NCBI RefSeq assembly: GCF_017353515.1
Contig: NZ_JAFMPY010000004.1
Coordinates: forward strand, 248,001 to 312,000
Reading direction: 5' to 3'
Length of the DNA stretch: 64,000 nucleotides
From: Jiella sonneratiae
Lineage (GTDB): Bacteria; Pseudomonadota; Alphaproteobacteria; Rhizobiales; Rhizobiaceae
The position numbers were made by a program, and so were the translations under genes. Position 1 is the first letter of the stretch, and every line of letters starts with the position of its first letter. Under the pieces are notes generated by a model that was given only the letters and a program-made list of their open reading frames with translations, did not search any database and was not told the origin of the DNA. Below, piece after piece: positions 16,986 to 34,597 of the stretch.

Positions 16986-17816
<831 letters not shown>

Positions 17817-17827
17817 GAGCCTCATCC

Positions 17828-18832: not shown

Positions 18833-18982
18833 GCCGCGACGGTCCGGCGACGCGGCGGCTCGCGGCGCGTGCGGTCTGCGTCCCGCCGCGCCGGCGGCGC
18901 CGGAGCGACGTCCGCGGCCGGGAGAGACACGCGACGGCCCGGGCCGGCGCGCGATGATTTGATGAGCTTCAGGAGACCTGCC

Positions 18983-20455
18983 ATGAGCGTGAGGCTTTCC
19001 GAACGGACCCTTTCCGAGATCGCGGCGACGGCGGCGGTGCCTCGCTACGACCGGTCGCGGCTTGCCGCGGGCATCCTGCATTTCGGCGTCGGCAACTTCC
19101 ACCGCGCCCACCAGGCGGTCTATCTCGACGACCTGTTCGAGACCGGCGAGGGACACGACTTCGCCATCGTCGGGGCCGGCGTCATGCCCTCCGACCAGGC
19201 GATGCGTGACAAGCTCGCCTCCCAGGACTACCTGACCACCGTCGTCGAGCAGGACAACGCCCGCACCTCGGCCCGCGTCACCGGGCCGATGGTCGACATG
19301 CTGGCCGTCGGCGACGCCGAGGCGATCATCGAGAGGCTCGCCGATCCGGCGATCAGGATCGTCTCGCTGACGGTGACCGAGGGCGGCTATTTCGTCGATT
19401 CCGACGGCGTCTTCGATCCCTCGCATCCGGCGATCGCCGCCGACGGCGCCAGCCCCGACCAGCCGAAGACCGTCTTCGGTCTGATCGGTGCCGGGCTGAG
19501 GCGCCGGTCCGAGCGGGGCCTCGCGCCCTTCACCGTCATGTCCTGCGACAACATCCCGCACAACGGCAAGGTCTGCCGGTCGGCGGTCGTCGGCACGATG
19601 CGGCTCTCCGACCCGGCCTTCGCCGACTGGATCGACGCGAACGTCGCCTTTCCGAACGGCATGGTCGACCGCATCACCCCGGCGACCAGCCAGCGGGAGA
19701 TCGACCACTGCCGCGAGACCTTCGGCATCGAGGACGCCTGGCCGGTCTATTGCGAGGAATTCAAGCAGTGGGTGCTCGAGGACGACTTCCCGGCCGGCCG
19801 CCCGGCGCTGGAGAAGGTGGGCGTCCAGTTCGTTCCCGATGTTTCCCCCTACGAGGCGATGAAGATCCGCATCCTCAACGGCGGCCATGCGATCATCGCC
19901 TATCCGGCCGGGCTGATGGACGTCCACTTCGTCCACGAGGCGATGGAGACCGACCTCGTCGCGCGATTCCTCGACAAGGTCGAGCGCGACGAGATCATCC
20001 CCGTCGTGCCGCCCGTCCCGGATACCGACCTCGGCGACTATTTCTCCCTGATCAAGCGCCGCTTCGCCAATCCGAAGATCGGCGACACGGTGCGCCGGCT
20101 CTGCCTCGACGGCTCGAACCGCCAGCCGAAGTTCATCGTCCCCTCGATCCTCGACAATCTGAAAGCCGGCCGCGCGCCGGAGGGTCTCGCGCTGGAATCG
20201 GCGCTCTGGTGCCGCTACTGCCGCGGCACGAGCGACGGCGGCACTGCGATCGAGCCGAACGATCCGAACTGGGACAAGCTCGTCGAGCGGGCGAAGGCCG
20301 CCGAGACCGACCCCTCCGCCTGGCTGGCGATGACCGACGTCTACGGCTCGCTGAAGGACGAGCCGCGCTTCGCTGAGCCTTTCGCCAGATGGCTGGCGAT
20401 GCTGGCCGAGAAGGGCACGGCGGAGACGTTGCGGGTCTATCTCGGCAAGTCTTGA
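18983..20455 (+). CDS. mtlK: Mannitol dehydrogenase family protein (polyol 2-dehydrogenase)
   Basis: 490-residue long-chain polyol dehydrogenase, NAD-dependent and metal-free, oxidising mannitol or arabitol to fructose or xylulose. N-terminal Rossmann part: GILHFGVGNFHRAHQAVYLDDL. The catalytic lysine region is KIRILNGGHAIIAY, matching the K-x(4)-N-x(2)-H set of Pseudomonas mannitol 2-dehydrogenase. DRITPAT and KFIVPSILDNL are further family segments. AGGAGA precedes ATG 18983. It follows smoK by 150 bp in the same direction and supplies the first catabolic step after uptake. Confidence 0.93.
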   Translation: MSVRLSERTLSEIAATAAVPRYDRSRLAAGILHFGVGNFHRAHQAVYLDDLFETGEGHDFAIVGAGVMPSDQAMRDKLASQDYLTTVVEQDNARTSARVTGPMVDMLAVGDAEAIIERLADPAIRIVSLTVTEGGYFVDSDGVFDPSHPAIAADGASPDQPKTVFGLIGAGLRRRSERGLAPFTVMSCDNIPHNGKVCRSAVVGTMRLSDPAFADWIDANVAFPNGMVDRITPATSQREIDHCRETFGIEDAWPVYCEEFKQWVLEDDFPAGRPALEKVGVQFVPDVSPYEAMKIRILNGGHAIIAYPAGLMDVHFVHEAMETDLVARFLDKVERDEIIPVVPPVPDTDLGDYFSLIKRRFANPKIGDTVRRLCLDGSNRQPKFIVPSILDNLKAGRAPEGLALESALWCRYCRGTSDGGTAIEPNDPNWDKLVERAKAAETDPSAWLAMTDVYGSLKDEPRFAEPFARWLAMLAEKGTAETLRVYLGKS

Positions 20456-20676
20456 GGGCGCGCCGCGATGCGTGTCGTTAGGCGGCTCGCCGAAGCCCGC
20501 GGACCTTGGCGGCCGCGTTACACGCAGTGACGAATCCCGACGTTTGGAGACCGCGTAGCCAAATCCCGACGACAGAGGCCGGTTAAACCTGTGGCCGTGC
20601 GGAGGTCGAGGCCAACGGCGCCCGCCGGTGCCCGTGCTTGGCGATCCGGGCCTTCGACCAGTTCGGGAGAGTTTTC

Positions 20677-21321
20677 ATGCGGAAAATGTTGCGCGCTGCG
20701 GTTCTGCTTTTCGCGGCCGTTCTGGCGCCGGGCGGCGCCCTTGCTGCCAGCTCGGCCGTTGCCACGGCCGACGTCAACATGCGCGCCGGCCCTGGCACAG
20801 GCTATCCGGCGGTCCGGGTCGTGCCGGCTGGCGGACGCGTCGTCACCTATGGCTGCCTTGCCGACTATTCCTGGTGCGATACGGGTTATCTGGGCGCCCG
20901 CGGCTGGGTTTCTGCGCACTATCTGACCACCATCGTCGCCGGCACGACGGTGGTCGTCGGGCCGCGGGTGGGGTTGCCGGTCGTGTCCTTCAATACGGCC
21001 TACTGGAACCGGTACTATACGAGCTATCCCTGGTATTACCGCGGCCCCGCATATTACGCTCCGCCGCCAGGAGCCAGCGTGAACCGGAACTGTGGTCTCC
21101 ATGGCTGTAGCGGCACGGTCAGCGGCGCCTATGGCGGCAGCGCCGCGGGAACCAGGGGCTGCGGTCCGCGCGCATGTGGCGGCGCCGGCACCGTGACGGG
21201 ACCCAACGGCGGCACGGTTCGCGGCGCCCGCGCGTGCGGCCCCCGCGGCTGTGTCGGTGGCTATCGGGTCGTCGGCCCGAATGGTGGCACGCGAGGCGGC
21301 GTCGGGGGCTTCCCGCGATAA
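20677..21321 (+). CDS. Secreted SH3b-domain protein with Cys/Gly-rich repeats
   Basis: 214 residues. The signal peptide MRKMLRAAVLLFAAVLAPGGALA precedes a bacterial SH3 domain at about residues 25-85 (VATADVNMRAGPGTGYPAVRVVPAGGRV, then GWVSAHYL), a module that binds cell-wall peptides in many exported proteins. Then comes a Tyr-rich linker (YYTSYPWYYRGPAYYAPPP) and a C-terminal third built from loose repeats with CGPRAC/CGPRGC and GPNGGT. The start at 20677 has GGGAGAG; ATG 20638 is less good because it precedes the signal peptide. Periplasmic or envelope location is inferred. Confidence 0.85.
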   Translation: MRKMLRAAVLLFAAVLAPGGALAASSAVATADVNMRAGPGTGYPAVRVVPAGGRVVTYGCLADYSWCDTGYLGARGWVSAHYLTTIVAGTTVVVGPRVGLPVVSFNTAYWNRYYTSYPWYYRGPAYYAPPPGASVNRNCGLHGCSGTVSGAYGGSAAGTRGCGPRACGGAGTVTGPNGGTVRGARACGPRGCVGGYRVVGPNGGTRGGVGGFPR

Positions 21322-21480
21322 AGCCGGTCGGCTCGATTTTTCGGCTCGTCCAAGACATGGCGTCGAAACGGAAGTTACAGAACCAATACTCACTGCGAGC
21401 GTCACAAATCTTCTGCAATGCAAGCCCGGCTCAAGAGTTTCCGGTTACCTGTGGGCAACCACCAACTGGGGCCGAGCGCC

Positions 21481-22377
21481 ATGCGATTTTCGACAGCTTC
21501 CGCCTTTGGCCTGTTCTTGGCGCTGCTTTCCCTCCAGCCCGCCAATGCCGAATGGCGCGAAACGGAAGAGGGCGACTGGCGCGCCGCCTATGCCTGCGCC
21601 GCGGGCGGGGAAACCTGCGTCGCGGTGTCCTGCCAGCGCGGCGAGGGGCCGCGCTTCGGCATCTGGACGCCGCAGTTCTCGCCCCTCGATGCGGACGAGA
21701 TGCGCAAGCAGCGGCGCTTCGACATCGCCATCGACGGGGCGGCGACGTCGCTTTCGGTCGACGACGGCGAGTATCTGCGGGAAAAGCGCGTCGTCTTCTG
21801 GCCGATGGACGGCGGTCTTCTCGGCGACATCGGTGACGGATCGACGCTCGCGCTGCGCGGCTGGGGCGAGCCGAAGATCGACATTCGCGACGAGGACGGG
21901 GCGATCGACAGGACCATCAGGGAGTGCGTCGTCACGCGCGCCCCGAGCGAGGCGGCGCATCGCCGCGGCGATTTTCCCTGGGAGGGTGCGGACGGCGCGG
22001 CAGGCGCCGCGGAGCGGCTGGCCTATCTGAAGGACGTGATGCCCGGCGAAGCGGCGTGTCGGCTCGACGGCGGGGACGCCTCCTGCCGCATCGCCGAGAC
22101 CCCCGGCTCGGACCGCAATTCGATCCGCGCCCGCTTCGACCCGATGAACCGGGAACTCGCGATCCGGGCCGAGATCGCCGATCGCGACGACAGCGGCCCG
22201 GCCTATCGCAGCCGGCTCTACGACGTCCTGACCGCCTTCGGCATCCCGCGGTCCTTCGCCGACCACTGTTTCGGCCAGGGCGCCGTGACGCTCGACGTCG
22301 CCGGAAACCGCGTCGCCTGCGACAGCTACACCCCGTCCGACGCGACGGTCGCGACGTTCTACATCACGCGCCTTTGA
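21481..22377 (+). CDS. Secreted protein of unknown function (298 aa)
   Basis: A signal peptide (MRFSTASAFGLFLALLSLQPANA, cleaved before E24) is followed by about 275 residues that I cannot assign to a family. There are several Cys pairs (YACAAGGETCVAVSC, ECVV, ACRLDGGDASC, HCFGQGA...ACDSY), which suggests disulfides in the periplasm. ATG 21481 is chosen over 21418 because it starts the signal peptide. It lies between the SH3 protein and the FGGY kinase, with no evident operon partner. Confidence 0.75.
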   Translation: MRFSTASAFGLFLALLSLQPANAEWRETEEGDWRAAYACAAGGETCVAVSCQRGEGPRFGIWTPQFSPLDADEMRKQRRFDIAIDGAATSLSVDDGEYLREKRVVFWPMDGGLLGDIGDGSTLALRGWGEPKIDIRDEDGAIDRTIRECVVTRAPSEAAHRRGDFPWEGADGAAGAAERLAYLKDVMPGEAACRLDGGDASCRIAETPGSDRNSIRARFDPMNRELAIRAEIADRDDSGPAYRSRLYDVLTAFGIPRSFADHCFGQGAVTLDVAGNRVACDSYTPSDATVATFYITRL

Positions 22378-22535
22378 GAATTCGGCGGCAGCCTCTCGTG
22401 GCGCCCCGTCGGCCTGAAAAGCGGCGGACGCCCCGGCGCCGTCTGCCGTGCTTTGCCGTCTCGCCGCAGCCGGGGCTCTTTCCATCAGGCGAAGAATCCG
22501 GCTAGGTCGCACCCGGAGACGAGACGGGAGGCGGC

Positions 22536-24179
22536 ATGGCGGAGGCATATCTCGGCATCGACGTCGGGACGGGCAGCGCGCGCGCCGGGCTGTTCGACCG
22601 CTCCGGACGGCTGCTTTCCGCCGCCAAGCGCCCGATCCGCCTGTGGCGCGAGGATCCGAACGTCTTCGAACAGTCCTCCGACGACATCTGGCGGGCGATC
22701 TGCGACAGCGTGCGCGAAGCCGTCGCCGCGGCGGGCCTTGCCGGGAGCGACGTCAAGGGGCTCGGCTTCGACGCCACCTGCTCGATGGTGGTGGTCGATC
22801 GCGACGCCCGGCCGCTGACCGTCAGCCGCAGCGGCGACGACGCCCGCAACGTCATCGTCTGGATGGACCACCGGGCCCTCGACCAGACCGCGCGGATCAA
22901 CGCCACCGGCCACAAGGTGCTGCGCTATGTCGGCGGGCGGATCTCGCCCGAGATGGAGACGCCGAAGCTGATGTGGCTGAAGGAGCGGCTGCCGGACACC
23001 TTCCGGCGCGCCGGGCACTTCTTCGACCTCGCCGACTTCCTGTCCTTCCGCGCCACCGGAAGTCTCGCCCGGTCGGTCTGCACGCTGACCTGCAAATGGA
23101 CCTATCTCGCCCATGAGCGCCGCTTCGACGCCGATTATTTCCGTCAGATCGGCCTTGAGGAGCTCGCGGACGAGGGCTTCGCGCGGATCGGCACCGATGT
23201 GGTCGACATCGGCGTGCCGCTCGGGGCGGGGCTCACCGAGGCCGCGGCCGAGGAACTCGGCCTGTCGCCGGGAACGCCGGTCGGGGCCTCGCTGATCGAC
23301 GCCCATGCCGGCGGCGTCGGCACCGTCGGCGGCGATCTTCCCGGCGGCGGCGCCGGCGATCCGACCCGCGAACTCGCCTTCATCATGGGCACCTCCTCCT
23401 GCACCATGACGCTGACGCCGGAGCCCTCATTCGTCGACGGCGTCTGGGGCCCCTATTACGGGGCGATGATCCCCGGCCTCTGGCTGCTGGAAGGCGGCCA
23501 GTCGGCCTATGGCGCGGCCCTCGACTATCTGATCGCCCTCCATCCGGCCTATCCGGCCGCCGCGCGCGCCGCCGAAGCGGCCGGCCTGTCGGTTCCCGAC
23601 CATCTCGAGGCTCGAGCCCTGGCGATGGCCGGATCGCCGGAGGCGGCCGCCTTCCTCGGGGCGGAACTCACCGTCGTGCCGGAATTCCTCGGCAACCGCT
23701 CGCCGGAGGCCGACCCGCACGCCCGCGGCGCCGTCGCCGGCCTGACGCTCGCCTCCAGCGAGGAGAACCTCGTCAGGCTCTTCGTCGCGACGCTCTGCGG
23801 CCTTTGCTACGGCACCCGCCAGATCGTCGAGGCCAACCGGGCGAAGGGGCTGAGCCTCGGCGCGATCGTCGCTTCCGGCGGCGCCGCCCGCTCGCCGCTG
23901 CTGCGGCGCCTCCTCGCCGACGCGACCGGGCTGTCGGTGGCACGGCCCGAGACCCGCGAACCGGTGCTCCTCGGCAGCGCGATGGTCGGGGCGGTGGCGG
24001 CGAAGGCGCATCCGGACCTTCGCGCCGCAGCCGCCGCCATGTGCCGGTCGGGCGAGGTCGTGGCGCCGGCGGGCGGGGCGCTCGCCGCCTATCACGCGGC
24101 GAAGTTCGAAGCCTACGAACTGCTTCAGCGCGCCGAGAGGCAGACGCGGGCGATCCTCGGCCCATATCTCGAACGCTGA
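22536..24179 (+). CDS. FGGY-family carbohydrate kinase (ribulokinase type)
   Basis: 547-residue sugar kinase with two actin-like domains. LGIDVGTGSARAGLFD is the N-terminal phosphate-1 motif, GFDATCSMVVVD and VIVWMDHRA mark the sugar-binding face, and ASGGAARSPLLRRLLADATG in the C-terminal half is the adenosine motif. Length and the MDHRA segment place it with pentulose (D-ribulose or similar) kinases rather than glycerol or xylulose kinases. It could phosphorylate the ketose produced from a polyol by the upstream mannitol-type dehydrogenase. The link is by proximity only, since two unrelated genes lie between. Confidence 0.9.
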   Translation: MAEAYLGIDVGTGSARAGLFDRSGRLLSAAKRPIRLWREDPNVFEQSSDDIWRAICDSVREAVAAAGLAGSDVKGLGFDATCSMVVVDRDARPLTVSRSGDDARNVIVWMDHRALDQTARINATGHKVLRYVGGRISPEMETPKLMWLKERLPDTFRRAGHFFDLADFLSFRATGSLARSVCTLTCKWTYLAHERRFDADYFRQIGLEELADEGFARIGTDVVDIGVPLGAGLTEAAAEELGLSPGTPVGASLIDAHAGGVGTVGGDLPGGGAGDPTRELAFIMGTSSCTMTLTPEPSFVDGVWGPYYGAMIPGLWLLEGGQSAYGAALDYLIALHPAYPAAARAAEAAGLSVPDHLEARALAMAGSPEAAAFLGAELTVVPEFLGNRSPEADPHARGAVAGLTLASSEENLVRLFVATLCGLCYGTRQIVEANRAKGLSLGAIVASGGAARSPLLRRLLADATGLSVARPETREPVLLGSAMVGAVAAKAHPDLRAAAAAMCRSGEVVAPAGGALAAYHAAKFEAYELLQRAERQTRAILGPYLER

Positions 24180-24313
24180 GGCAGGCGGCGGCCGACGGCC
24201 CGTCGGTGGCCGCTTGCGGCCTTCCAAGGTGAAACGCGGGCGCCCGCGGGTGCGAAACAGGCTTCGAAGCGGCGGGCTGCCGTCCGACCGGCGCAGGAGG
24301 GAAGGGACGAGGC

Positions 24314-24820
24314 ATGGCCAGTGACACAGACGGGCGGACGATCACCGCCACCGAGGCGGCCGCGCCGCCGCCGATCGGGGCGCTCTTCGCCTTCGCCGCG
24401 ATGCTGCCGATCGCGGCCGGTGCCGTCTATCTGTGGATCGGCAGCGAGGCGCAGGCCTTCCTGACCGTCAATCTCACGCTGCTCTGGGCCGCGGCGATCC
24501 TCACCTTCCTCGCCGGGGTGCGGCGGGGCGTCAGCTTCCGCCAGCCGGGCGGGCCGACGCCCGGCCAGCTCGCCACCATGCTGTGGATCTTCTTCCTCGG
24601 CTTTGCCGCGGTCGTCGAGACGGTCTGGGCCTATACGCTGACGGCGGCGGCTCTGGAATTGACCGGCTATGTCAGCCTCGCGATCCTCGACCCGCTGGCC
24701 GCGAAGAACGGCGAGGCGCCGCTGTTCTTCGCCTCGCTCCGGCCGCTGCAGATGGCGATCCCGATCGTCGCGCTGCCGGTTCTCGCCGTCTATGTCTGGC
24801 AGAGCCCGCTGTTCGGCTGA
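24314..24820 (+). CDS. DUF3429 family membrane protein
   Basis: 168 residues with four to five hydrophobic segments (IGALFAFAAMLPIAAGAVYLW; LTLLWAAAILTFLAGVRRGVSF; LATMLWIFFLGFAAVVE; LQMAIPIVALPVLAVYVW). The LTLLWAAAILTFLAGVRRG stretch is characteristic of DUF3429, an inner-membrane family of unknown role. It stands alone, 135 bp after the kinase. Confidence 0.83.
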   Translation: MASDTDGRTITATEAAAPPPIGALFAFAAMLPIAAGAVYLWIGSEAQAFLTVNLTLLWAAAILTFLAGVRRGVSFRQPGGPTPGQLATMLWIFFLGFAAVVETVWAYTLTAAALELTGYVSLAILDPLAAKNGEAPLFFASLRPLQMAIPIVALPVLAVYVWQSPLFG

Positions 24821-25161
24821 GCTGCGGCCGCTTCTCGCCCGGCCCGGACCGGCCGGCTCAGTTGCCCTCGTCCTCGCCCTCTCCCCCGGCGTCGTCCCGC
24901 GGCGCGATCACGCGCTCGGCGGTCGGCCGGTTCCGGCAGACGGCGAATACCAAAGCGCATGGTGCCGTCGATGGTACGGCCGTCGATGGTGCGGGTTGCA
25001 GAGCCGGTCGCATTCGGCGTCGCGAAAGGCGATCCAGGCGCGCTGCGCCGTCTCTTTGGCGGAAGGCGCGCCATGACAGAACCGGTTGCTGATCTAGCTG
25101 TGGTGTCGGCGCGGAACGCCGGGGCGGCGTGCCGCGGCGATCCTTGCAACGGGCGGCGCGA
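24821..25161. other. Intergenic region before the MDR/pterin-like operon
   Basis: 341 bases with no convincing gene. Imperfect tandem copies of GGCCGTCGATGGT occur near 24963-24998. A minus-strand frame ending at 24858 gives Arg-rich sequence without a good start and is not called. Confidence 0.35.
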
Positions 25162-26193
25162 ATGGCAGCGAGAGACGTCTTGACGGATGATGAGCCGGAT
25201 AAGGCCGGGCGGGCGCTCTGGCTCGTCGGGGAGGGGCGCGCGGCGCTTCGCGAGGAACGCCTGCCGGAGCCGGGTGCCGGCGAGGTCCTCGTACGGGCGC
25301 GCCACGGTGCGATCAGTCGCGGCACGGAATCGCTCGTCGCGTCGGGCTCGGTGCCGGAGAGCGAGTGGCAGAGAATGCGGGCGCCCTTCCAGGAAGGGGC
25401 GTTCCCGTTTCCGGTGAAGTACGGCTACGGCACGGTCGGCGAGATCGTGGAAGGGGGCAGGGGCGGCGGCGCGGAGTCCGGCGCCGACGACAGTCGGGGC
25501 CGGTGGGTGTTCTGCCTGCATCCCCACCAGGACCTTTTCGTCGTGCCGGCCGACGCGGCGGTGCCGATCCCGGAGGGGGTCGCGAAACATCGCGCGGTGC
25601 TCGCCGCCAACATGGAGACGGCGCTCAACGTCGTCTGGGACGCCGGCATCCTGCCCGGCGACCGCGTCGCCGTCGTCGGCGGCGGGGTGGTGGGGCTGCT
25701 CGTCGCCTATATCGCCGCCGCGATCCCGGGGACGGAGACCTTCGTCGTCGACGTCAATCCCTCCCGCGGCGGGATCGTCGCGGCGCTGGGCGCGCAGTTC
25801 GCGGCGCCGACGGACCTCCCCGCCGACTGCGACGTCGTCGTCCATACCTCGGCGAGCGAGGAGGGGCTGGCGAGCGCCATCGCCGCGGCCGGCTTCGAGG
25901 CGCGGATCGTCGAGGCGAGCTGGTACGGGGCGGCGCTGCCGACGATCCCGCTCGGCGGCGCCTTCCACAGCCAGCGCCTGTCGATCGTCGGCTCGCAGGT
26001 CGGCAGCGTTCCGCCCGGCCGGGCGACGCGCTGGAGCAACCGCCGCCGGCTGGAGGCGGCGCTGCGGCTTCTCGCCGATCCGCGGCTCGACGTCTTGTTT
26101 TCCGGCGAGACGGCCTTTGCGGACCTTTCGGCGCGCTATGTCGACATTCTGGCGGATCCGGCGACGCTGTGCCACCGCATCCGCTACGACTGA
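25162..26193 (+). CDS. Zinc-type alcohol dehydrogenase-like (MDR) oxidoreductase
   Basis: 343-residue medium-chain dehydrogenase, closest in style to the BchC-like branch. The N-terminal part (ALWLVGEGRAALREERLP, then GAISRGTESLVASG) lacks the usual GHE zinc-ligand motif and has Ser in place of the catalytic-zinc Cys, so zinc catalysis is doubtful. The Rossmann motif is VAVVGGGVVGLLVAYIAA, near residues 172-190. YGYGTVGEIVEGG precedes it. ATG 25162 is preferred; an upstream ATG at 25129 adds 11 residues. It is the first gene of a four-gene unit with the pterin-synthase-like, GT4 and methyltransferase genes. Confidence 0.82.
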   Translation: MAARDVLTDDEPDKAGRALWLVGEGRAALREERLPEPGAGEVLVRARHGAISRGTESLVASGSVPESEWQRMRAPFQEGAFPFPVKYGYGTVGEIVEGGRGGGAESGADDSRGRWVFCLHPHQDLFVVPADAAVPIPEGVAKHRAVLAANMETALNVVWDAGILPGDRVAVVGGGVVGLLVAYIAAAIPGTETFVVDVNPSRGGIVAALGAQFAAPTDLPADCDVVVHTSASEEGLASAIAAAGFEARIVEASWYGAALPTIPLGGAFHSQRLSIVGSQVGSVPPGRATRWSNRRRLEAALRLLADPRLDVLFSGETAFADLSARYVDILADPATLCHRIRYD

Positions 26194-26245
26194 CGGCCGG
26201 ACGAGAAAGCCGGCCGCGAGACGCGATGAAGAAGGAGCGGCGCCG

Positions 26246-26644
26246 ATGTATGCCGTCGAGGTCCGGGACCACATGATGATCGCCCACAGCCTGCCGAGAC
26301 CGGTCTTCGGCCCGGCCCAGGGCATGCACGGCGCGACCTTCGTCGTCGATGCGGCGTTCTTCGTCGAGGCGCTCGACGCCGACGGGCTCGCCGTCGACAT
26401 CGGCCGCGCGGCCACGCTCCTGAAGGAGGTGCTCGAGCCGCTGAACTACGGCAATCTCGACGCGATGGAGGCGTTCTCCGGCAAAATCACGACCACCGAG
26501 TTCCTGGCGCGCCACCTGTTCGACCGGCTGGCGGACCGCATCGCCGAAGGGGCGCTCGGCGAGGGCGGCCAACGGGTCCGGCGCATGCGGGTGACGCTGG
26601 AGGAATCGCACGTCGCGCGCGCCTGGTACGAGGGCGATCTGTGA
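26246..26644 (+). CDS. Degenerate 6-pyruvoyl-tetrahydropterin synthase / QueD-like protein
   Basis: 132 residues on the T-fold of PTPS/QueD. Family landmarks align: MMIAHSLPRPVFGPAQGMHGATF corresponds to the zinc site, TTTEFLARHLF to the NPTSE helix, and RVTLEESHVARAWYEGD to the pterin-anchoring Glu region. Key residues differ: the third zinc ligand of HxHGH is Ala30 (HGA), the catalytic Cys position four before His28 is Ala24, and the DH..LN motif reads NYGNLD. It therefore probably binds a pterin-like ligand but should not run the normal reaction. AAGGAG precedes ATG 26246. Its stop overlaps the next start. Confidence 0.82.
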   Translation: MYAVEVRDHMMIAHSLPRPVFGPAQGMHGATFVVDAAFFVEALDADGLAVDIGRAATLLKEVLEPLNYGNLDAMEAFSGKITTTEFLARHLFDRLADRIAEGALGEGGQRVRRMRVTLEESHVARAWYEGDL

Positions 26645-27711
26645 GCCGAGGCCGGCTCGTCTTCGCCATCCCCGGCGACATCGAGACGCCGAGCGGCGGC
26701 TATGGCTACGACAGGCGGCTGATGGGCGAGCTGAGGCGGCTCGGCCTGACGGTCGACCATCTGAGGCTGCCCGCCGGCTTTCCGCGGCCGAGCCCGGCGG
26801 AGCGGGCCGAGACGGCGGCGGCCTTTGCCGCATTGGCAGACGGCAGCCACGTGCTCGTCGATGGGCTCGCCTTCGGCGCGATACCCGAAATCGCCGAAGA
26901 AGAGCACGGCCGCCTGCGCCTTGCGGCGCTCGTCCATCATCCGCTCTGCCTCGAGACCGGCCTGTCCGCGACGCTCGCCGCCGCGCTCGAAGCCTCCGAG
27001 CGCGCCGCGCTCCGATGCGCCGCCTCGGTCGTCGTCACCAGTGCCGCCACGGGCGAAACGCTGCGGCAACGCTTCGGCGTTCCGGCCGACCGCCTGACGG
27101 TCGCGCCGCCCGGCACCGACAAGCCGGCGATGCCGAAAGAATGGCCTGCCGGTCCCAAGGGGTCTGCCGGCGTGCCGCTGCTCCTTTCGATCGGAACCCT
27201 CATCCCCCGCAAGGACCACGCGACGCTCGTCGCGGCGCTCGCGACGATCGCCGATCTCGACTGGCGCTGCCGCATCGTCGGCTCGAAGACCGCCGATCCG
27301 CAGACCGCTGCGGCGCTCGAGCGCCAGGTTGCGGCATGCGGCCTTTCCGGCCGCGTCGAACTCGTCGGAGCGCTTGCGGACGTCGCCGGCGAATATCCGG
27401 CGGCTGACGTCTTCGTGCTCGCCAGCCGCTACGAAGGCTACGGCATGGTCTTCGCCGAGGCGCTGGCCCACGGCCTGCCGGTGGTCTTCTGTGCCGATGG
27501 CGCGCCGCGCGACCTCGTGCCGGAAGCGGCCGGCCGACGCTTTTCGCCGGGTGACGCCGCAGCGCTCGCCGATGGTCTTCGGACGCTGCTCGTCGACGAA
27601 GATGCCCGCCGACGCGCCGGCGAGGCGGCATTCGCCGCGGGGCAGGCCCTGCCGGGCTGGGACGAGACCGGCCGCCGCGTCGCCGCGGCGCTCGGGGGGC
27701 TCGGCCGATGA
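26641..27711 (+). CDS. Glycosyltransferase family 4 protein
   Basis: 356-residue GT-B enzyme, a retaining nucleotide-sugar glycosyltransferase. The acceptor half begins GRLVFAIPGDIETPSGGYGYDRRL. The donor half (about 175-340) has LLSIGTLIPRKDH, the phosphate-contact region, and the E-x7-E motif EGYGMVFAE. It starts at GTG 26641, overlapping the TGA of the pterin-like gene (GTGA), so the two are translationally coupled. Known GT4 enzymes include pteridine glucosyltransferases of cyanobacteria, so a glycosylated pterin-like product is a possible role. That is inference. Confidence 0.87.
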   Translation: MSRGRLVFAIPGDIETPSGGYGYDRRLMGELRRLGLTVDHLRLPAGFPRPSPAERAETAAAFAALADGSHVLVDGLAFGAIPEIAEEEHGRLRLAALVHHPLCLETGLSATLAAALEASERAALRCAASVVVTSAATGETLRQRFGVPADRLTVAPPGTDKPAMPKEWPAGPKGSAGVPLLLSIGTLIPRKDHATLVAALATIADLDWRCRIVGSKTADPQTAAALERQVAACGLSGRVELVGALADVAGEYPAADVFVLASRYEGYGMVFAEALAHGLPVVFCADGAPRDLVPEAAGRRFSPGDAAALADGLRTLLVDEDARRRAGEAAFAAGQALPGWDETGRRVAAALGGLGR

Positions 27712-28544
27712 GCGGATTTGCCGCCTCCTGGCTCGACCTGCGGGCGCCGGCCGACAAGCGGGCGCGCGACGCCGGCCTGCTGCGGCGGGCGGCCGGCTTC
27801 CTGGCCGAACCTGCCGGGGAGGGGAAGGTCGTCGCCGTCGATCTCGGCTGCGGAACGGGGGCGACGCTCGCGGCCTTTGCGGCGGCACTGCCGGACGTGG
27901 CGAAGGCCTGTCGCTGGCGTCTCGTCGACGCCGATCCGGCGCTGCTCGCTGTTGCGGCGGCGCGGGCGGAGGATCTCGGCCTTCTGGCGGAAACGGTGCG
28001 GGCCGATCTGTCCGATCTCGCCGCGGTGCCGCTCGACGGCTCCCGGCTCGTCACCGCCTCGGCGCTGTTCGACCTCGCCTCGGCCGACTTCGTCGAGGCC
28101 CTGGCGGAGAGGGTGGCGGCCTTTGGGGCGGGGCTCTATGCCGCGCTGAGCTATGACGGGTCGACCTCCTTTTCGCCGAGCCATCCGCTCGACGGGATCG
28201 TCGTCGCCGGCTTCAACCGGCACCAGTTGCGGCCGAAGGGGCTCGGGCGCGGCGCCTCGCTCGGGCCCGCCGCGGCACGCCGGCTCGGCGCGGCGATGAC
28301 AGCGAGGGGCCATGCGGTCGAACTCGCCGACAGCCCCTGGCGGCTCGGCCCCGGCGACGCGCAGCTTTCGGCCGCCCATGTCGCGGGCATGGCTTCGGCG
28401 GTCGATGAACTCGGGGTCCTCGACCCGGCCGGGATCGAGGCCTGGCGACGGTTCCGGCTCGAAGCCGCGGGCGCGGCCGAGACCGTCGTCGGCCATCTCG
28501 ACCTTCTGGCATTGCCGGCTGGAAGCGGCGCCGGCGCATCCTGA
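27708..28544 (+). CDS. Class I SAM-dependent methyltransferase
   Basis: 278 residues. Motif I is VAVDLGCGTGATLAAFA (about residues 42-58), followed by RLVDADPALLAVA (motif post-I) and SALFDLASADFVEALA near residues 117-132. The C-terminal half is less typical. The ATG overlaps the glycosyltransferase stop (ATGA), so it is the last gene of the four-gene unit. The substrate is unknown; a small molecule made by the preceding enzymes is likely. The unit ends in the palindromic repeat at 28574. Confidence 0.83.
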   Translation: MSGFAASWLDLRAPADKRARDAGLLRRAAGFLAEPAGEGKVVAVDLGCGTGATLAAFAAALPDVAKACRWRLVDADPALLAVAAARAEDLGLLAETVRADLSDLAAVPLDGSRLVTASALFDLASADFVEALAERVAAFGAGLYAALSYDGSTSFSPSHPLDGIVVAGFNRHQLRPKGLGRGASLGPAAARRLGAAMTARGHAVELADSPWRLGPGDAQLSAAHVAGMASAVDELGVLDPAGIEAWRRFRLEAAGAAETVVGHLDLLALPAGSGAGAS

Positions 28545-28573
28545 GGACCGGGCGGCGCCCGGCGCGACCCGGC

Positions 28574-28659
28574 GGCTCCGATCGGGCTCGTATCGAGCCC
28601 GCGCGGCGAATGAGCGTCTTTGTTTCCGGCATCACGAAGTGATCTGCCGGAAACCGTAT
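28574..28659 (+). repeat. Dispersed palindromic repeat, copy B (left end shortened)
   Basis: It matches copies A and C from GGCTC onward but lacks the first ~15 bases. It retains GTTTCCGGCATCACGAAG and TGCCGGAAACCGTAT, the stem-loop arms. Its right end, read on the minus strand (TGATACGG), supplies the TGA of the cytochrome b561 gene that ends at 28659. It lies between convergent genes. Confidence 0.8.
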
Positions 28660-29201
28660 CAGAGCATCCGGTAGAGCGTGTCGTCGCGCCGCAGCAGATG
28701 GTGGTGGAGGACGCCGGCGAGATGCAGGCAGAACAGGACGACGATCGACCAGCCGAGGAAGACGTGGACGCGCATCAGGACCGGCGCGACGTCGGACTTG
28801 CCGAGCGGGCTCCAGACGGTGACGAGGCCGAACCAGTCGAGCGGAAAGCCGAAGGCGTTGGTCGCGAGGAAGCCGAAGACCGGCTGCAGGATCAGCGCGG
28901 CATAGAGCAGCCAGTGCACCGATGCCGCCAGCCGCTTCTGCCAGAGCGGCATCGCCGGCTCCGCCGGCGGCGGGAAGACCAGCCGCAGCGCGAGGCGCGC
29001 CAGCATCACCCAGAGGATGAGAAAGCCGAAGGATTCATGGACGAAGTAGAAGCCGGTCTTCGCCTCGTCCTTGACGAAGCCGATGACGAAGCCGACGGGC
29101 CAGACGAGAAGAACGAGCAGCGCGACCAGCCAGTGCAGCGCCCGCAGCGCCGGGCGATGGCGGACGACCTGCGGCAAGGGGCGGGCGTCGAGGGCCGTCA
29201 T
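28659..29201 (-). CDS. Cytochrome b561 family protein
   Basis: 180-residue di-haem membrane protein with four helices. Haem-ligand histidines appear in RALHWLVALLVLLVW (helix 1), FVHESFGFLILWVML (helix 2), ASVHWLLYAALILQP (helix 3) and VHVFLGWSIVVLFCLHLAGVLHHH (helix 4). Such proteins move electrons between quinol and periplasmic partners, sometimes for superoxide oxidation. AAAGG precedes ATG 29201. Its stop codon lies on the edge of the palindromic repeat. Confidence 0.9.
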   Translation of the reverse strand: MTALDARPLPQVVRHRPALRALHWLVALLVLLVWPVGFVIGFVKDEAKTGFYFVHESFGFLILWVMLARLALRLVFPPPAEPAMPLWQKRLAASVHWLLYAALILQPVFGFLATNAFGFPLDWFGLVTVWSPLGKSDVAPVLMRVHVFLGWSIVVLFCLHLAGVLHHHLLRRDDTLYRML

Positions 29202-29276
29202 GGCAGACCTTTCGGCGTGGCGTCTGGTGCCCTCCCGGATATCCGGCTTTGCGGCTTCAATGAAGCCTCGATGTCC

Positions 29277-30413
29277 TCATCGTGATCGCGGCATCGGCGA
29301 GGTTGCGAGCGACACCGACTTGATCTGGGCGAACAGCCGATCGCCGACGGCAAGCTCCAGCCGCCCGGCCGAGCGGCGGGTGACCTTGGCGACGAAGGTG
29401 AAGTCCGCCGCGCCTTCGAGGGCGAGCAGGATGGCGAGATCGGCGGCGCCGGTGCCCGGCTCGATGGCGACGATCTCGACCCGCAGCGCATTGAGGATCG
29501 TCGACGGGCCGAGCGGCGCGCGGGCGAGGCTGACGTCGCTCGCGGCGATGCGGACCCGCCGCTCGATGCCGATCTCGGCGGCGCCGATGCCCTCGACGAA
29601 CAGGCTCTGGCCGCAGAGGTCGAGCTCCGACAGGCCGTCCTCCGCGGCATAGGCCGTAACCCGCGCGGGCAGGACGGCGGCGGCGCGCGGATCGCGCACG
29701 AAGCCGAGCCCGACGTCGGTGAGCGCCGCGTTGAGCCCGCCCGCGGCCCGGATGCGGCCGTCCTCGACGACGACGATGCGGTCGGCGAGGCGCTCGATCT
29801 CGGCGAGATCGTGGCTGACATAGAGGATTGGCAGGTCGAGGGAGGAGCCGAGCCGCTCGAGAAACGGCAGGATCTCGTTTTTCGCCAGATGGTCGAGGCC
29901 GGACAGCGGCTCGTCCATCAGCATCAGCCGCGGGCGCGACAGGATCGCCCGGCCGATCGCGACACGCTGTCTTTCGCCGCCGGAGAGATCTGCGGTCGAG
30001 CGCGAGAGCAGCGGCGCCAGCGACAGGAGCGCGACCACCTCCCGCCGCAGCCCGGCGTCGACGCCGCCTTCGGTCCGCCGCGCGCCGTAGACCAGATTGG
30101 CCTCGACGGTAAGATGCGCAAACAGGCTGGCTTCCTGGAAGACGTAGCCGACCGCCCGCCGATGCGGCGGGACGAAGCGCTCGCCCTCCTGCCAAACCTC
30201 GCCGCCCGCGACGACGCGGCCGGCGAGCCGCACCAGCCCGGCGATCGATCGAAGCAGCGAAGTCTTGCCCGAACCGGAGGGGCCGAACAGCGCGGTGACG
30301 CCGCGGGCCGGTGCGGTGAACGCGGCGTCGAGGGCAAAGCCGCCGCGCCGTCCCGCCAGCCGGACGTCGAGCCCCGGCGCCTCCGCGCCGGGTGGCGCTT
30401 CCCGCCGGCTCAC
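29277..30413 (-). CDS. modC: Molybdate ABC transporter ATP-binding protein ModC
   Basis: 378-residue ATPase. Walker A is GPSGSGKTS near residues 39-47, the signature [15 protein letters not shown] near 131-145, and Walker [13 protein letters not shown]. The C-terminal ~130 residues form a MOP/TOBE molybdate-binding domain ([21 protein letters not shown]). The start is GTG 30413, overlapping the modB stop (GTGA). Longer frames upstream run through modB and are shadows. It drives the ModAB importer. Confidence 0.93.
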
Positions 30414-31081
30414 GGGGCGATCTCGCCGAGCCGCCGGCCGATCCGCGACATCGCCAGAATGACCAGAAACGAGAAGACCAGCATGCCGCCGGCGACGATG
30501 TGGGCGTCGGCGAAGCGCAGCTGTTCGACATAGTCGAAGATCGCGATGGACAGGACCCGGGTCTTGCCCGGAACGTTGCCGCCGATCATCAGCACGACGC
30601 CGAACTCTCCGACGGTGTGGGCGAAGCCGAGCACGGCGCCGGTGAGGAAGCCGGAGCGCGCGAGCGGTACGGCGACGGTGAAGAACCGGTCGAGCGGGCC
30701 GGCCCGCAGCGTCGCCGCCACCTCCAGCGGGCGGTCGCCCACCGCCTCGAAGGCGCTGCGCACCGGCTGGACCACGAAAGGCATGGAGTAGATGACGGAG
30801 CCGATCACCAGGCCCGGGAAGGAAAAGGCGAGGGAGCGCAGCCCGAACAGGCCGCCGAGCCCGGAGGGGCCGAGGGCGATCAGAAGATAGAAGCCGAGGA
30901 CCGTCGGCGGCATCACCAGCGGCAGGGCGACGAGCGTTCCGACGACGTCGGAACGCCACGAGCGCGAGCGCGCCAGCCACCAGGCGAGCGGCGTGCCGAG
31001 CAGGAGCAGAAGGAGGGTCGTGACGCTCGCCAGTTCCAGCGTCAGCGCCAGGGCGCCGAAGATGTCGCGCGTGTCGATCAA
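30410..31081 (-). CDS. modB: Molybdate ABC transporter permease ModB
   Basis: 223-residue permease with five to six helices. The ATPase-docking loop reads [27 protein letters not shown] near residues 123-150, then [23 protein letters not shown], a ModB hallmark. The start is TTG 31081, 16 nt after the modA stop, with GAGG upstream. It forms the molybdate channel as a dimer. Confidence 0.94.
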
Positions 31082-31097
31082 GTCCGGCGCCTCGCGG

Positions 31098-31847
31098 TCA
31101 CTGGCCGATGCCGTAGCCGTATTTCTCGATGATCTTCTTTGCCTGCGGCCCCTTCAGGAAGTCGAGAAATTCCTTCGCCGCTTCGTTCGACGCGCCGGTC
31201 TTCAGGAGCACCGCGTCCTGGCGGATCGCCGTGTGGTCGGCGGCCGGGACGACCCAGCGCGAACCCGCCTCGTCGCCCACCACCTGGGAAAGCGCCACGA
31301 AGCCGAGCTCGGCATTGCCGGTCGAGACGAACTGGAATGTCTGGGCGATGCTGTTGCCCTGGACGATCTTGTCGGCGAGATCGTCGTAGACGCCGAGCTT
31401 CTTCATCGTCTCGACGGCCGCCGTGCCGTAGGGCGCGGTCTTCGGATTGGCGATGGCGATCTTGTCGAAGTCGCCGGTCTTCAGCGCGTCGGGCCCGCCG
31501 ACGAGCTTCGGATCGGTGCTGTAGAGGACGAGCGTCCCGACGGCGTAGGTGAAGCCGCTGCCCTTCACCGCGAGACCCTCGTCGACCGCCCGGCGCGGCC
31601 GCTCGTCGTCGGCCGCCAGGAACACTTCGAACGGCGCGCCCTGGCCGATCTGGGTGTAGAGCGCCCCGGTCGAGCCGAAGCTGAGCTTGGCCGTGTCGCC
31701 GGTCGCCTCGTGGAACGCCGTGGCGATCTCCTTGGCGGGTTCGGTGAAGTTCGCCGCGACGGCGACGACGGTCGTCTCGGCGGCGGCCGCCTGCGAGGCG
31801 GCGAGGACGGTGGTGGCGAAAAGCGCGGCGGATAGAAGGCGTGTCAT
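31098..31847 (-). CDS. modA: Molybdate-binding periplasmic protein ModA
   Basis: 249 residues with signal peptide [23 protein letters not shown]. The mature part has [23 protein letters not shown] and [28 protein letters not shown], the oxyanion-binding hinge, and [22 protein letters not shown] precedes ATG 31847. A longer start at 31877 would lie inside the ModE palindrome and is rejected. It is the first gene of modABC. Confidence 0.95.
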
Positions 31848-31857
31848 TGATGATCTC

Positions 31858-31881
31858 CGATATGTTTCGCAGAACATATCG
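31858..31881. promoter_or_regulatory. ModE-type operator upstream of modA
   Basis: CGATATGTT-TCGCAG-AACATATCG is a perfect 9+9 inverted repeat. It resembles ModE/Mop boxes, whose arms read like CGTTATAT and ATATAACG. It sits 11 bp upstream of the modA start and 29 bp after the end of the modE-like gene, so bound regulator would block modABC transcription when molybdate is plentiful. Confidence 0.7.
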
Positions 31882-31909
31882 CCATGGCGCGAGAGTCAAG
31901 GCGCCGCCG

Positions 31910-32344
31910 TCAGACTTCGTCGCTCCCGCGGCCTTCGCCATCGCTTTCGCCTTCATCGGCGACGGACTGGCCGGCCGGCCCCCCGTTCTTCGGCGCGAGC
32001 AGCGCCCGCAGCGCCGCGACCTCCGCGGCGACGGCGGCCTCGGCCTGCGCCTCGATCCGCCGGTAACCGTCGAGCACGCTGCGGCCGGCAGGCGTCAGGC
32101 CGGCGCCGCCGCCGGTGCTGCCGCCCCGCGTCGAGGTGACCAGCGGTTCGCGAAAGCCGGCATTCAGCTCCTCGACGAGGTTCCAGGCGCGCTTGTAGCT
32201 CATCTTCAGGCGGCGCCCGGCGGCGGCGATGGAGCCGGTCGCCTCGATCGCCTCGAGCAGCCGGGCCTTGCCGGGGCCGATGCTCCAGTCCGGGCTGAGC
32301 GCGAGGCGGAGATGGGCGATCGCCCGCGGCGGACCGTCCGTCAC
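31910..32344 (-). CDS. modE: Short ModE-type winged-helix transcriptional regulator
   Basis: 144 residues carrying only the N-terminal DNA-binding domain of ModE: SIGPGKARLLEAIEATGSIAAAGRRLKMSYKRAWNLVEELN, then the wing TRGGSTGGGAGLTPAGRSVLDGY. The C-terminal MOP/TOBE molybdate-binding domains of E. coli ModE are missing; in their place is an acidic tail (DEGESDGEGRGSDEV). How it would sense molybdate is unclear. The start is GTG 32344, overlapping the ribokinase stop (GTGA). A frame open to 33370 is the shadow of ribokinase. Confidence 0.85.
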   Translation of the reverse strand: MTDGPPRAIAHLRLALSPDWSIGPGKARLLEAIEATGSIAAAGRRLKMSYKRAWNLVEELNAGFREPLVTSTRGGSTGGGAGLTPAGRSVLDGYRRIEAQAEAAVAAEVAALRALLAPKNGGPAGQSVADEGESDGEGRGSDEV

Positions 32345-33291
32345 GGCGCGGAGAGCGCCGCGTCGATCTCGGCGGCGAAGGGCATGGCGGTCTGCGCGCC
32401 GACCTTGCGGCAGGCGAGGGACGCCGCGGCCACCGCCCGCCGCGCCGCCTGCGGCAGCGCGAGCCCGGCGGCGAGACCGCTGGCGAAGACGCCGACGAAG
32501 GTGTCGCCGGCCCCCGTCGTGTCCACCACGTCGACGGCGAGCGCCGGCAACGTCTCGATCGTGCCCGGCGCGTCGGCGAGAAGGACGCCGTCGCCGCCGA
32601 GCGTCGCGATCACCGCCAGCGCGTATCCCGCGCCGAGCGCACCGGCGAGGGCCGCCGGCGTCTCGCCGGAGAGCCCGGCCAGCGCCGCTGCGGCGGCAAG
32701 TTCGGTCTCGTTGACGACGAGCACGCTGCAGGCGGCGAGAAGCCGCCGCAGATCCTCGCGGCGCAGCCCGGCGGGCACGGGGGCGAGGTTGACCACGACC
32801 CGGCCGCCCGCCGCCCGCATCCTTTCGGCGGCCGCGAGGCTCTCGGCGAGCGGAACCTCCATCTGCAGGACGAGGACGGCGTCTTCGCGAAACAGTGCCG
32901 GATCGGCGGCATCGGCGCGCGCTTCGAGATTGGCGCCGCTCGCCACGGTGATGGCGTTCTCGCCGTCGGCGTCGATGGTGATGAAGGCGCAGCCTGTGCG
33001 CTCGCCGGTGGTGGCGAGGCTGCCGACGTCGATGCCCTCGCCGGAAAGGGCGGCCCGCGACCGTTCGCCGAGTTCGTCGTCGCCGACCGCGCCGGCAAGG
33101 CACACCGCCGCGCCGCCGGCCCGCGCCGCCGCGACGGCCTGGTTGGCGCCCTTGCCGCCGAAGAGCTGTTCGTAGCGGGCGGAGAGCACGGTCTCTCCCG
33201 GCCGCGGGATGGTCGCGACGCGGCAGACGAGATCGACGTTGACCGAGCCGAAGACGAAGACCACCGGCCGTTTTGCTGCCGTCTGTGACAT
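32341..33291 (-). CDS. rbsK: Ribokinase (PfkB family)
   Basis: 316-residue sugar kinase that makes ribose 5-phosphate. GSVNVDLVCRVATIPRPGETV and FGGKGANQAVAAARAG are the substrate-binding motifs at about residues 15-60. The catalytic base lies in DTTGAGDTFVGVFASGLA near residue 255. GAGG precedes ATG 33291. It is unexpectedly coupled to the ModE-type regulator through a GTGA overlap, so the pair probably share a promoter in the gap before cheS. Confidence 0.92.
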   Translation of the reverse strand: MSQTAAKRPVVFVFGSVNVDLVCRVATIPRPGETVLSARYEQLFGGKGANQAVAAARAGGAAVCLAGAVGDDELGERSRAALSGEGIDVGSLATTGERTGCAFITIDADGENAITVASGANLEARADAADPALFREDAVLVLQMEVPLAESLAAAERMRAAGGRVVVNLAPVPAGLRREDLRRLLAACSVLVVNETELAAAAALAGLSGETPAALAGALGAGYALAVIATLGGDGVLLADAPGTIETLPALAVDVVDTTGAGDTFVGVFASGLAAGLALPQAARRAVAAASLACRKVGAQTAMPFAAEIDAALSAP

Positions 33292-33834
33292 CGCTGCCTC
33301 GCGCCTCCCGTCGCCACCCGCATCGGACCCTTCTCCACCATTCGCGGGCCTGCCTCAAGAGGCGCGGCACAAGCCTCGCACAGGCCGGCGGGCATTGTGT
33401 GGAAAGGGTGCGTCGGGAAGGGACGGCCGCGCCGGACGGTGATCTTTGCCGGTGCGGCGGGCTTTAGAAAACAACATGGCTACACTTGGGGAATGTTTCG
33501 TAAGTACAGGTGATGTCGTCGCAGATCGGGCACGCGGCGGCGGTTCCGGTCGGACAGCTGCAGGTCCGATAAAGAATTGCTTAGGAGGTTGCGGCTAGTT
33601 TCCGACGAAAGTTTCCCTTCCTGGGCGCGCAATGCTCGAGTCGCAGTCGATGGCCGTGAAGAATACGAAATCATGCACCGCGAAGGCCTCCTCGTCCGCG
33701 GCGTCCCGCGGGGCTCCCGAGGCGCTGGCGAGGCGCGCGGCGCGTGCCGCCTTCCGCCGCGCGCCGAGAGACGCGTCGCGCCCCGCCCCGCGCCGCCGCG
33801 GTGCCGTTTCCGTCGCAATCCCGGAGAAGCTCTG
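33292..33834. other. Divergent promoter region rbsK / chemotaxis operon
   Basis: 543 bases. No gene is called. AT-richer sequence lies at 33465-33510 and 33568-33600. TCGGAC-AGCTGCAG-GTCCGA (33550-33569) is a 6-bp inverted repeat in front of the chemotaxis operon, and GCCT-CGCAC-AGGC lies at 33373. A 67-codon frame at 33632-33835 is mentioned among the rejected items. The position where rhizobial chemotaxis operons usually carry a receptor gene (icpA) is empty here. Confidence 0.45.
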
Positions 33835-34149
33835 ATGCCCCGCAAGTCACCCAAGACGACCGCCGTCGAAGGCGCGGTCTACACGCTGCCCGAGATCCTC
33901 GATCTCAAGGCCGCGACGCCGTTGACCGAGAAGCTGATGTCGCTGCGCGGCCAGAACATCGTCCTCGATGCCTCGAAGGTCGAGCGCCTCGGCACCCAGT
34001 GCGTCCAGATCCTGATCGCCGCCGCCGCCACCTGGAAGGACGACATGGCGGCCTTCAGCATCGCGGAGCCGTCCGATTCTTTCACCTCCGGCCTTCAGGT
34101 CCTCGGTCTCACGCCTCAGGCCATTCTCGAAAAGGAAGTCGCACAATGA
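33835..34149 (+). CDS. cheS: STAS-domain chemotaxis protein (CheS-like)
   Basis: 104 residues with one STAS fold: VYTLPEILDLKAATPLTEKLMSLRGQNIVLDASKVERLGTQCVQILIAAAATW in short pieces, the beta-alpha pattern of anti-sigma-antagonist-like domains. In Sinorhizobium meliloti the small CheS protein is encoded at the same operon position, binds CheA and speeds loss of phosphate from CheY1. Here it precedes cheY by an ATGA overlap. GGAGAAG lies before ATG 33835; an upstream extension to 33577 is Arg-rich noise. The symbol rests on gene order and fold, not on a sequence search. Confidence 0.75.
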   Translation: MPRKSPKTTAVEGAVYTLPEILDLKAATPLTEKLMSLRGQNIVLDASKVERLGTQCVQILIAAAATWKDDMAAFSIAEPSDSFTSGLQVLGLTPQAILEKEVAQ

Positions 34150-34517
34150 AACGCACCATTCTCACCATCGACGACTCGCGCACCATGCGCGAGATGCTCA
34201 AGGTCACGCTGGCCTCTTCGGGCTTCACGGTCGTCCAGGCGGAGGATGGCCAGCACGGCATCGAGGTCCTCGAGAGCATGGACATCGAGCCCGACGTGAT
34301 CATCACCGACATCAACATGCCGAGGAAGGATGGCTTCCAGTTCATCGAGGCGGTCCGGGCCAATTCCGCGCGCCGCGCCATCCCGATCCTCGTCCTGACG
34401 ACCGAGAGCGACGCGGAGAAGAAGCAGCGCGCCCGGCTCGCCGGCGCCACGGGCTGGATCGTCAAGCCCTTCGACCCGACCAAGCTGGTCGACGCGATCA
34501 ACAGGGTCGCCGCCTGA
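34146..34517 (+). CDS. cheY: CheY-like response regulator (first copy)
   Basis: 123-residue receiver domain. The acid pocket is Asp9/Asp10 with phospho-acceptor Asp55 (ITDINMP), Thr/Ser at LTTES and Lys in IVKPFDP. The ATG overlaps the CheS stop. In rhizobia the equivalent CheY1 acts mainly as a phosphate sink while the second CheY binds the motor; by position this is the CheY1 equivalent. Confidence 0.93.
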   Translation: MKRTILTIDDSRTMREMLKVTLASSGFTVVQAEDGQHGIEVLESMDIEPDVIITDINMPRKDGFQFIEAVRANSARRAIPILVLTTESDAEKKQRARLAGATGWIVKPFDPTKLVDAINRVAA

Positions 34518-34597
34518 GGCGGCGCCGCATTCGGCCGCAACTGCAAGGCATTTCACCGGCGCGCTGAGGCCGGACCGAGGGTGGAAAGAGACAGACC

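Follow-up and report, generated by a model that had tools for sequence, protein, structure and literature searches.

PTPS-IV and its closest described relatives

The members of the PTPS/QueD superfamily that carry the signature FGPAQ have been named PTPS-IV, and were collected as cluster-node 62, with 561 sequences, in the AGeNNT survey, where their gene neighbourhood was noted to include PF00925 (labelled 'FolE2') and PF01872 (PMC5445326). The passages of that survey concerned with the group propose no pathway or product for it, and mention no MDR, GT4, methyltransferase or lipid-type genes (PMC5445326). The present analysis concerns a PTPS-IV gene of Jiella sonneratiae, located in a stretch of 64,000 nucleotides (contig NZ_JAFMPY010000004.1, positions 248,001 to 312,000; hereafter the window) as the second of four genes on the same strand, the others coding for an MDR-superfamily dehydrogenase, a GT4-fold glycosyltransferase and a methyltransferase. 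The conserved gene set around PTPS-IV across Proteobacteria and Actinomycetota is real, and the four genes are read here, with a probability of about 0.6, as the core of a conserved pathway to a pterin-like product that derives from GTP and carries a sugar and a methyl group.

The only PDB sequence match of the PTPS-IV protein at E 0.01 was SCO6650 of Streptomyces coelicolor (PDB 3d7j; E 5.7e-38). Like the window protein, SCO6650 presents FGPAQ..HGA and NY.NLD, with 55% identity to the structural model of the window protein, although its host belongs to another phylum. It is reported to contain no zinc and to display no PTPS activity, and we know of no substrate or activity for it. The PTPS-IV subfamily, already named and with one solved member, is known, and functionally orphan. 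SCO6655 is given as a GTP cyclohydrolase II (PMC2853524), and the place of SCO6650 five gene numbers before it would fit the PTPS-to-RibA spacing of Streptomyces fungicidicus. SCO6652, the methyltransferase if the order follows that of S. fungicidicus, appears in an expression table with values of 0.8, 4.3 and 4.1 (PMC3610822).

For the wider locus, one of the closest described systems is the archaeal and fungal type of riboflavin branch. That branch comprises a GTP cyclohydrolase, a creatininase-family deformylase and a diaminopyrimidine reductase, and shares with the PTPS-IV loci RibA, the creatininase family and a RibD_C protein without a deaminase domain; in contrast to it, the annotated loci list no later riboflavin genes and add PTPS-IV, the dehydrogenase, the glycosyltransferase, the methyltransferase and lipid-type genes. 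The best NCBIfam match of the dehydrogenase was BchC (TIGR01202), the MDR protein of bacteriochlorophyll synthesis, but its score of 47.5 bits against a cut-off of 291.25 places the protein outside that family.

Altered active site and conserved core

The PTPS-like protein belongs to the PTPS/QueD superfamily (PF01242, 72.5 bits, cut-off 22.4). Catalytic PTPS and QueD proteins hold zinc by three histidines (a first His and those of HGH) and use a Cys (CxxxHGH, for which ExxHGH may substitute) and a DH pair. The window protein has H14, A24, H28, A30, N67-Y68-G69-N70-L71-D72 and E120, and its segment F21-G22-P23-A24-Q25 is the PTPS-IV signature. In an alignment with E. coli QueD, the T-fold protein shared the first His and the HG pair, and differed from it in having Ala at the third zinc His, no Cys and NY in place of DH; the alignment contains a one-residue gap beside the Cys and ends ahead of the C-terminal Glu, so that the equivalence of E120 to the pterin-anchoring Glu of QueD was placed by motif only. 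An AlphaFold2 model from 36 sequences (mean pLDDT 93.2) matched 3d7j best (TM-score 0.95), followed by E. coli QueD (up to 0.74), and by this model the PTPS-IV family is a T-fold with an altered pocket.

The replacements are common to the whole family. Residues H14, A24, H28, A30, Y68, N70, L71, D72, E85 and E120 were invariant in 121 distinct homologues, H9 and Q25 were found in 120 and N67 in 95. These 121 derive from 122 sequences, namely the window protein, 29 from loci of its order, 80 from the Genome Taxonomy Database (GTDB) and 12 from the 24 plasmid records matched (four of the 24, at about 26% identity, were not counted as family), and include Streptomyces, Arthrobacter, Microbacterium and Thiodictyon. 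The 80 GTDB loci were found with the patterns FGPAQ..HG and EVRDH.M, and H9, A24, Q25 and H28 were therefore partly selected for there; H14, A30, Y68, N70, D72 and E120 lie outside the patterns, and the searches of the order and of the plasmids used none.

Since the same replacements are fixed across the family, they are most naturally read as altered chemistry and not as local decay. A degenerate QueD hitch-hiking beside a sugar- and methyl-transfer operon could also be expected to have lost the classic catalytic residues and, as in the window genome, to sit in a reduced locus. This explanation is hardly credible for a protein with identical replacements in 121 of 121 homologues across phyla, and was rejected on that invariance and on the low ratios of nonsynonymous to synonymous substitution rates (dN/dS). 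The core is intact in the Jiella loci and under purifying selection, with dN/dS values of 0.10–0.37 for the four genes against four Jiella loci. A different proposal is that PTPS-IV has become a scaffold or carrier that binds a pterin or an intermediate and is no longer an enzyme, the chemistry being left to the dehydrogenase, the glycosyltransferase and the methyltransferase. The replacement of zinc His, Cys and DH alike, and the reported lack of zinc and of PTPS activity in SCO6650, would agree with such a role, which is nevertheless unlikely, as the polar residues H14, H28, Y68, N70, D72 and E85 are invariant and H9 nearly so (120 of 121), more than ring binding on its own seems to need.

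Public records name PTPS-IV proteins 6-carboxytetrahydropterin synthase and link them to queuosine by automatic annotation, which is contradicted by the residues and the neighbourhood. If that annotation held, the residue changes would be neutral and the unit would serve the folate, queuosine or tetrahydrobiopterin branch with an ordinary pterin product; a match to the QueC model in the window genome (28.4 bits, cut-off 22) points the same way, yet covers 60 of 210 positions only. Against this stand the score of 31.4 bits to the QueD equivalog TIGR03367 (cut-off 89.25) and the lack of QueE and QueC among the neighbours annotated in ten plasmid loci, QueE and QueF not having been searched for in the window genome. 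An ordinary product is very unlikely; a QueD role was rejected on the model score and the fixed replacements, and the queuosine pathway less firmly, in view of the QueC-model match.

The other core proteins were assigned by profile and motif, and their comparison with solved structures gave distant matches only. The dehydrogenase scored 22.2 bits to ADH_zinc_N, under the cut-off of 31.8, and is annotated in relatives as 'zinc-binding alcohol dehydrogenase'; the segments SRGTE and KYGY, which we take to occupy the CGTD and GHE zinc positions, were conserved in at least 95% of 90 homologues. The glycosyltransferase is a GT4 member (Glycos_transf_1, 94.2 bits, cut-off 26.4) with the E-x7-E motif, which is conserved among homologues, and the methyltransferase matched Methyltransf_25 (35.4 bits, cut-off 27). 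The stop of the PTPS-IV gene overlaps the start of the glycosyltransferase gene by 4 bp (GTGA), as does the stop of the latter with the start of the methyltransferase gene (ATGA), and the dehydrogenase and PTPS-IV genes are 52 bp apart (Table 1).

Table 1. The four core genes and the convergent neighbour in the window.
Feature	Position	Strand	Remarks
MDR-superfamily dehydrogenase, without zinc ligands	25162 (ATG)–26193	+	Alternative GTG start at 25129; intact open reading frame
PTPS-IV (FGPAQ) T-fold protein	26246–26644	+	Intact open reading frame; Ala24, Ala30 and NYGNLD replace Cys, third zinc His and DH
GT4-fold glycosyltransferase	26641–27711	+	GTG start; E-x7-E motif kept; intact open reading frame
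Class I S-adenosylmethionine-dependent methyltransferase, locus-specific family	27708–28544	+	Intact open reading frame
Cytochrome b561	28659–29201	-	Convergent neighbour of core; Pfam

PTPS-IV was present in 89 of 297 sampled genomes of the order, the window genome included, the others at 52–74% identity, and in 27 of 398 genomes of a sample of the phylum, as well as in Actinomycetota. PF01242 proteins occur in 172 of the 297 genomes, and PTPS-IV is the only one in the window genome. Pattern scans of viral contigs confirmed no relative there. In the GTDB collection at least 584 stretches encode a relative, the best 80 of which were kept; their genes were counted by tblastn at E 1e-5, with short loci scored as misses (10 of 80 under 20 kb). 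The exact order dehydrogenase, PTPS-IV, glycosyltransferase, methyltransferase was found in 65 of these 80 loci, and the dehydrogenase, methyltransferase and glycosyltransferase in 79, 79 and 72, respectively; where the exact order was missing (15 loci), the glycosyltransferase lay apart in the neighbourhood in seven and was not found in eight. The 29 relative loci of the order, with flanks of about 1.5 kb, held PTPS-IV and glycosyltransferase in 29, dehydrogenase in 28 and methyltransferase in 27, both misses of the last being shortened loci. The 80 include two loci with gammaproteobacterial names (L086 and L098). The former, from Xanthomonas sp. AmX2, has the usual core order with RibD, RibA and CDP-alcohol transferase, and a PTPS-IV 70% identical to that of the window; it represents either a recent transfer or a mislabelled genome.

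The methyltransferase was found in 84 of the 297 genomes, 82 of which have PTPS-IV, and seven PTPS-IV genomes gave no methyltransferase at E 1e-15. The two exceptions (G010 and G123) contain no PF01242 protein. In G010, the locus-type methyltransferase (L132, 5571–6353) has a sulfatase-like neighbour, and the 11 kb extracted there contain no PTPS-IV.

A preliminary description of the window had already reported the altered PTPS active site with a retained Glu, the start-stop overlaps and a dehydrogenase without normal zinc ligands, and had suggested a new reaction on a pterin- or pyrimidine-like compound, followed by glycosylation and methylation. Open reading frame translation and the QueD alignment bore out the residues, both overlaps measured 4 bp, E120, the Glu placed by motif, was present in every homologue, and the loss of zinc ligands proved to be family-wide. 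Of the positions it had singled out, 14, 24, 28, 30, 68 and 70–72 were invariant; the active-site changes are fixed across the family, and the four genes stay together far outside the window genome. No homologue with intact HGH and Cys was met in the neighbourhood, a limited test in that the loci were found through PTPS-IV, the only independent cases being the two genomes of 297 with the methyltransferase but no PTPS-IV.

Linked genes and a putative GTP-derived product

Annotated relatives carry, in varying sets around the core, genes for RibA, the RibD family, a CDP-alcohol phosphatidyltransferase, a flippase-like protein of LPG-synthase type, a sulfatase-like protein, an FkbM methyltransferase and cytochrome b. 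Among the 80 loci, genes that would supply a GTP-derived precursor were RibD_C (56) and RibA (39), those of lipid type were CDP-alcohol transferase (59), sulfatase-like (55) and flippase-like (46), and other neighbours were cytochrome b561 (45), FkbM (36) and creatininase (1). The same association was observed in eight loci of other classes or phyla (Thiodictyon, Microbacterium, Arthrobacter, two Streptomyces and three genomes of other classes of the phylum), which are the core-holding ones among those fetched, i.e., five plasmid records and three of 11 same-phylum genomes of other classes, with Streptomyces H15 and H18 left out. They contained the dehydrogenase (8), glycosyltransferase (8) and methyltransferase (7), together with CDP-alcohol transferase (7), RibD_C (6), flippase-like (6), RibA (3), creatininase (3), sulfatase-like (2), FkbM (1) and cytochrome b561 (1). 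Cytochrome b561 is found near the core mostly in Alphaproteobacteria, and its membership of the locus is uncertain.

In the order, a RibD of the cluster type, delimited by a by-eye cut at the gap between E 8.3e-39 and 1.7e-25, occurred in 67 of 297 genomes, 66 of them with PTPS-IV (Fisher p 6e-45, kinship ignored), and the sole genome without PTPS-IV (G123) is 56% complete. Conversely, 23 of the 89 PTPS-IV genomes, that of the window included, lack this RibD. The one representative inspected consists of a RibD_C domain only, with no deaminase domain, and came slightly closer to the diaminopyrimidine reductase model of archaea, at 115.3 bits (cut-off 186.45), than to full bacterial RibD, at 110.0 (cut-off 156.35).

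The GTP cyclohydrolase II motif, which itself requires the zinc Cys, was matched in 48 loci (38 among the 80). At the active-site Tyr position, read by eye from the sequences, 46 have Tyr and two Met. Both of the latter are from Streptomyces (L127, 16479–17135, and L129, 15232–15897) and adjoin a creatininase-family gene. A change of this Tyr in GTP cyclohydrolase II leaves the formyl group on, and a creatininase-family deformylase would remove it, as in archaeal riboflavin synthesis; the Met-type proteins may thus mark formyl-retaining variants. The pairing is not a neat one: L161 matches creatininase beside a RibA of the Tyr type, and L103 and L157 match creatininase but show no RibA within reach. 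The motif DxxDGxxARx8GxxxDxxxD of CDP-alcohol phosphatidyltransferases was complete in four sequences inspected and conserved in 65.

Gene content, linkage, the fixed replacements, purifying selection and the T-fold are observed here, while the origin from GTP, the role of the reductase, the glycosylation and methylation steps and the link to a lipid are suggested by what is known of the families. On that basis a route can be proposed. In full loci, GTP cyclohydrolase II would open GTP to 2,5-diamino-6-ribosylamino-4(3H)-pyrimidinone phosphate, in Streptomyces by a variant enzyme accompanied by a hydrolase of the creatininase family that is probably a deformylase. The RibD_C-only reductase would then reduce the ribosyl group and, having no deaminase domain, leave the 2-amino-4-oxo ring edge in place. 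RibA, creatininase and a reductase-only RibD taken together suggest an intermediate with the edge that a PTPS-type Glu grips, and PTPS-IV may hold it by its conserved C-terminal Glu and transform it without zinc, for example by closing a ring or by isomerisation. The zinc-less dehydrogenase could perform a side-chain redox step, and oxidation at C2' would, we infer, let the 5-amino group close the pterin ring; the exact reactions of PTPS-IV and of the dehydrogenase are guesses. A sugar would be added by the GT4 protein and a methyl group by the methyltransferase, and where the CDP-alcohol phosphatidyltransferase and the flippase-like protein are present, linkage of the product to a membrane lipid is probable. 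In its most specific form, the proposal has the full locus make a pterin- or diaminopyrimidine-type glycophospholipid that is coupled to its lipid by the CDP-alcohol transferase and then translocated across the membrane; as such it is tentative and rather unlikely. Alternatively, the locus may yield a soluble glycoside of a pterin or pyrimidine, secreted or used as a cofactor, with the lipid-type genes part of an adjacent pathway; this is a real possibility, though short of an even chance: the window genome and nine of the 80 loci have the core with no such lipid-type genes in reach, whereas the CDP-alcohol transferase accompanies it in 59 of the 80 and in seven of the eight more distant loci.

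The preliminary description is amended in two respects. Its four-gene unit stands as a core but is incomplete, since the RibA, RibD_C, CDP-alcohol phosphatidyltransferase and flippase-like genes were unseen, and the linked RibA, RibD_C and lipid-type genes are more telling on the substrate than the PTPS fold. The 'stripped' PTPS subfamily that it described had already been named and has a solved structure (3d7j). No account of the whole locus was found in open-licence papers, where absence is weak evidence.

The reduced locus of the window genome and its meaning

The main weakness of the proposed GTP-derived pathway is the reduced locus of the window genome, and the following points weigh against it. 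This genome, 98.2% complete, keeps the four-gene core only, beside cytochrome b561. Neither its sole PF00925 protein nor either of its two PF01872 proteins belongs to the cluster type, the five CDP-alcohol proteins show at most 28% identity to the cluster type over a long match, PF03706 is absent from it, and a cluster-type sulfatase was not found in a search that had no positive control. Likewise, nine of the 80 loci, four Jiella ones included, are without any supply gene, lipid-type gene or FkbM within reach, so that the supply and lipid-type genes are not strictly required. The core itself varies, the glycosyltransferase being absent in eight of the 80 loci (two of them shortened) and two Streptomyces plasmids carrying PTPS-IV but no other core gene. 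Against Aurantimonas (L037), dN/dS was higher for PTPS-IV (0.47) and the methyltransferase (0.55), with values of 0.29 for the dehydrogenase and 0.36 for the glycosyltransferase. Finally, a 'PTPS-IV' has been assigned, as unpublished, to archaeal F420 synthesis, in a text that may use the label in another sense (PMC5041015).

The lone genes of the two Streptomyces plasmids (L114, 9001–9399, and L126, 12001–12426) are near genes for MEKHLA-domain, cupin and MBL-fold hydrolase proteins.

Near the window unit, PF00925 and PF01872 are missing from the neighbourhood; because they are common but not universal among relatives, the window protein was assigned to PTPS-IV by its FGPAQ motif. As none of the locus-type supply or lipid genes was found in the genome, the precursors there would have to come from housekeeping genes, unless the core acts on a different pterin in Jiella.

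No Rfam match at gathering score was obtained in window positions 17000–36000. A tRNA-Thr (cgt) called by ARAGORN at 27891–27970 (+) lies within the methyltransferase gene, has no Rfam match even at E 1 and is probably false. Adjoining cytochrome b561, at 29277–31877 (-), are ABC transporter genes (an ATPase with a TOBE domain, a permease and a binding protein), probably of the molybdate type.

If the lipid-linked version were true, the recurrence of cytochrome b561 in Alphaproteobacteria would hint at a pterin that serves as a redox carrier in the membrane. The recurrent supply, tailoring and lipid-type genes make the function of a solved fold member accessible to testing, and the locus points to a GTP-derived metabolite in almost a third of the sampled genomes of the order (89 of 297), in 27 of 398 sampled genomes of the phylum, and also in Actinomycetota.

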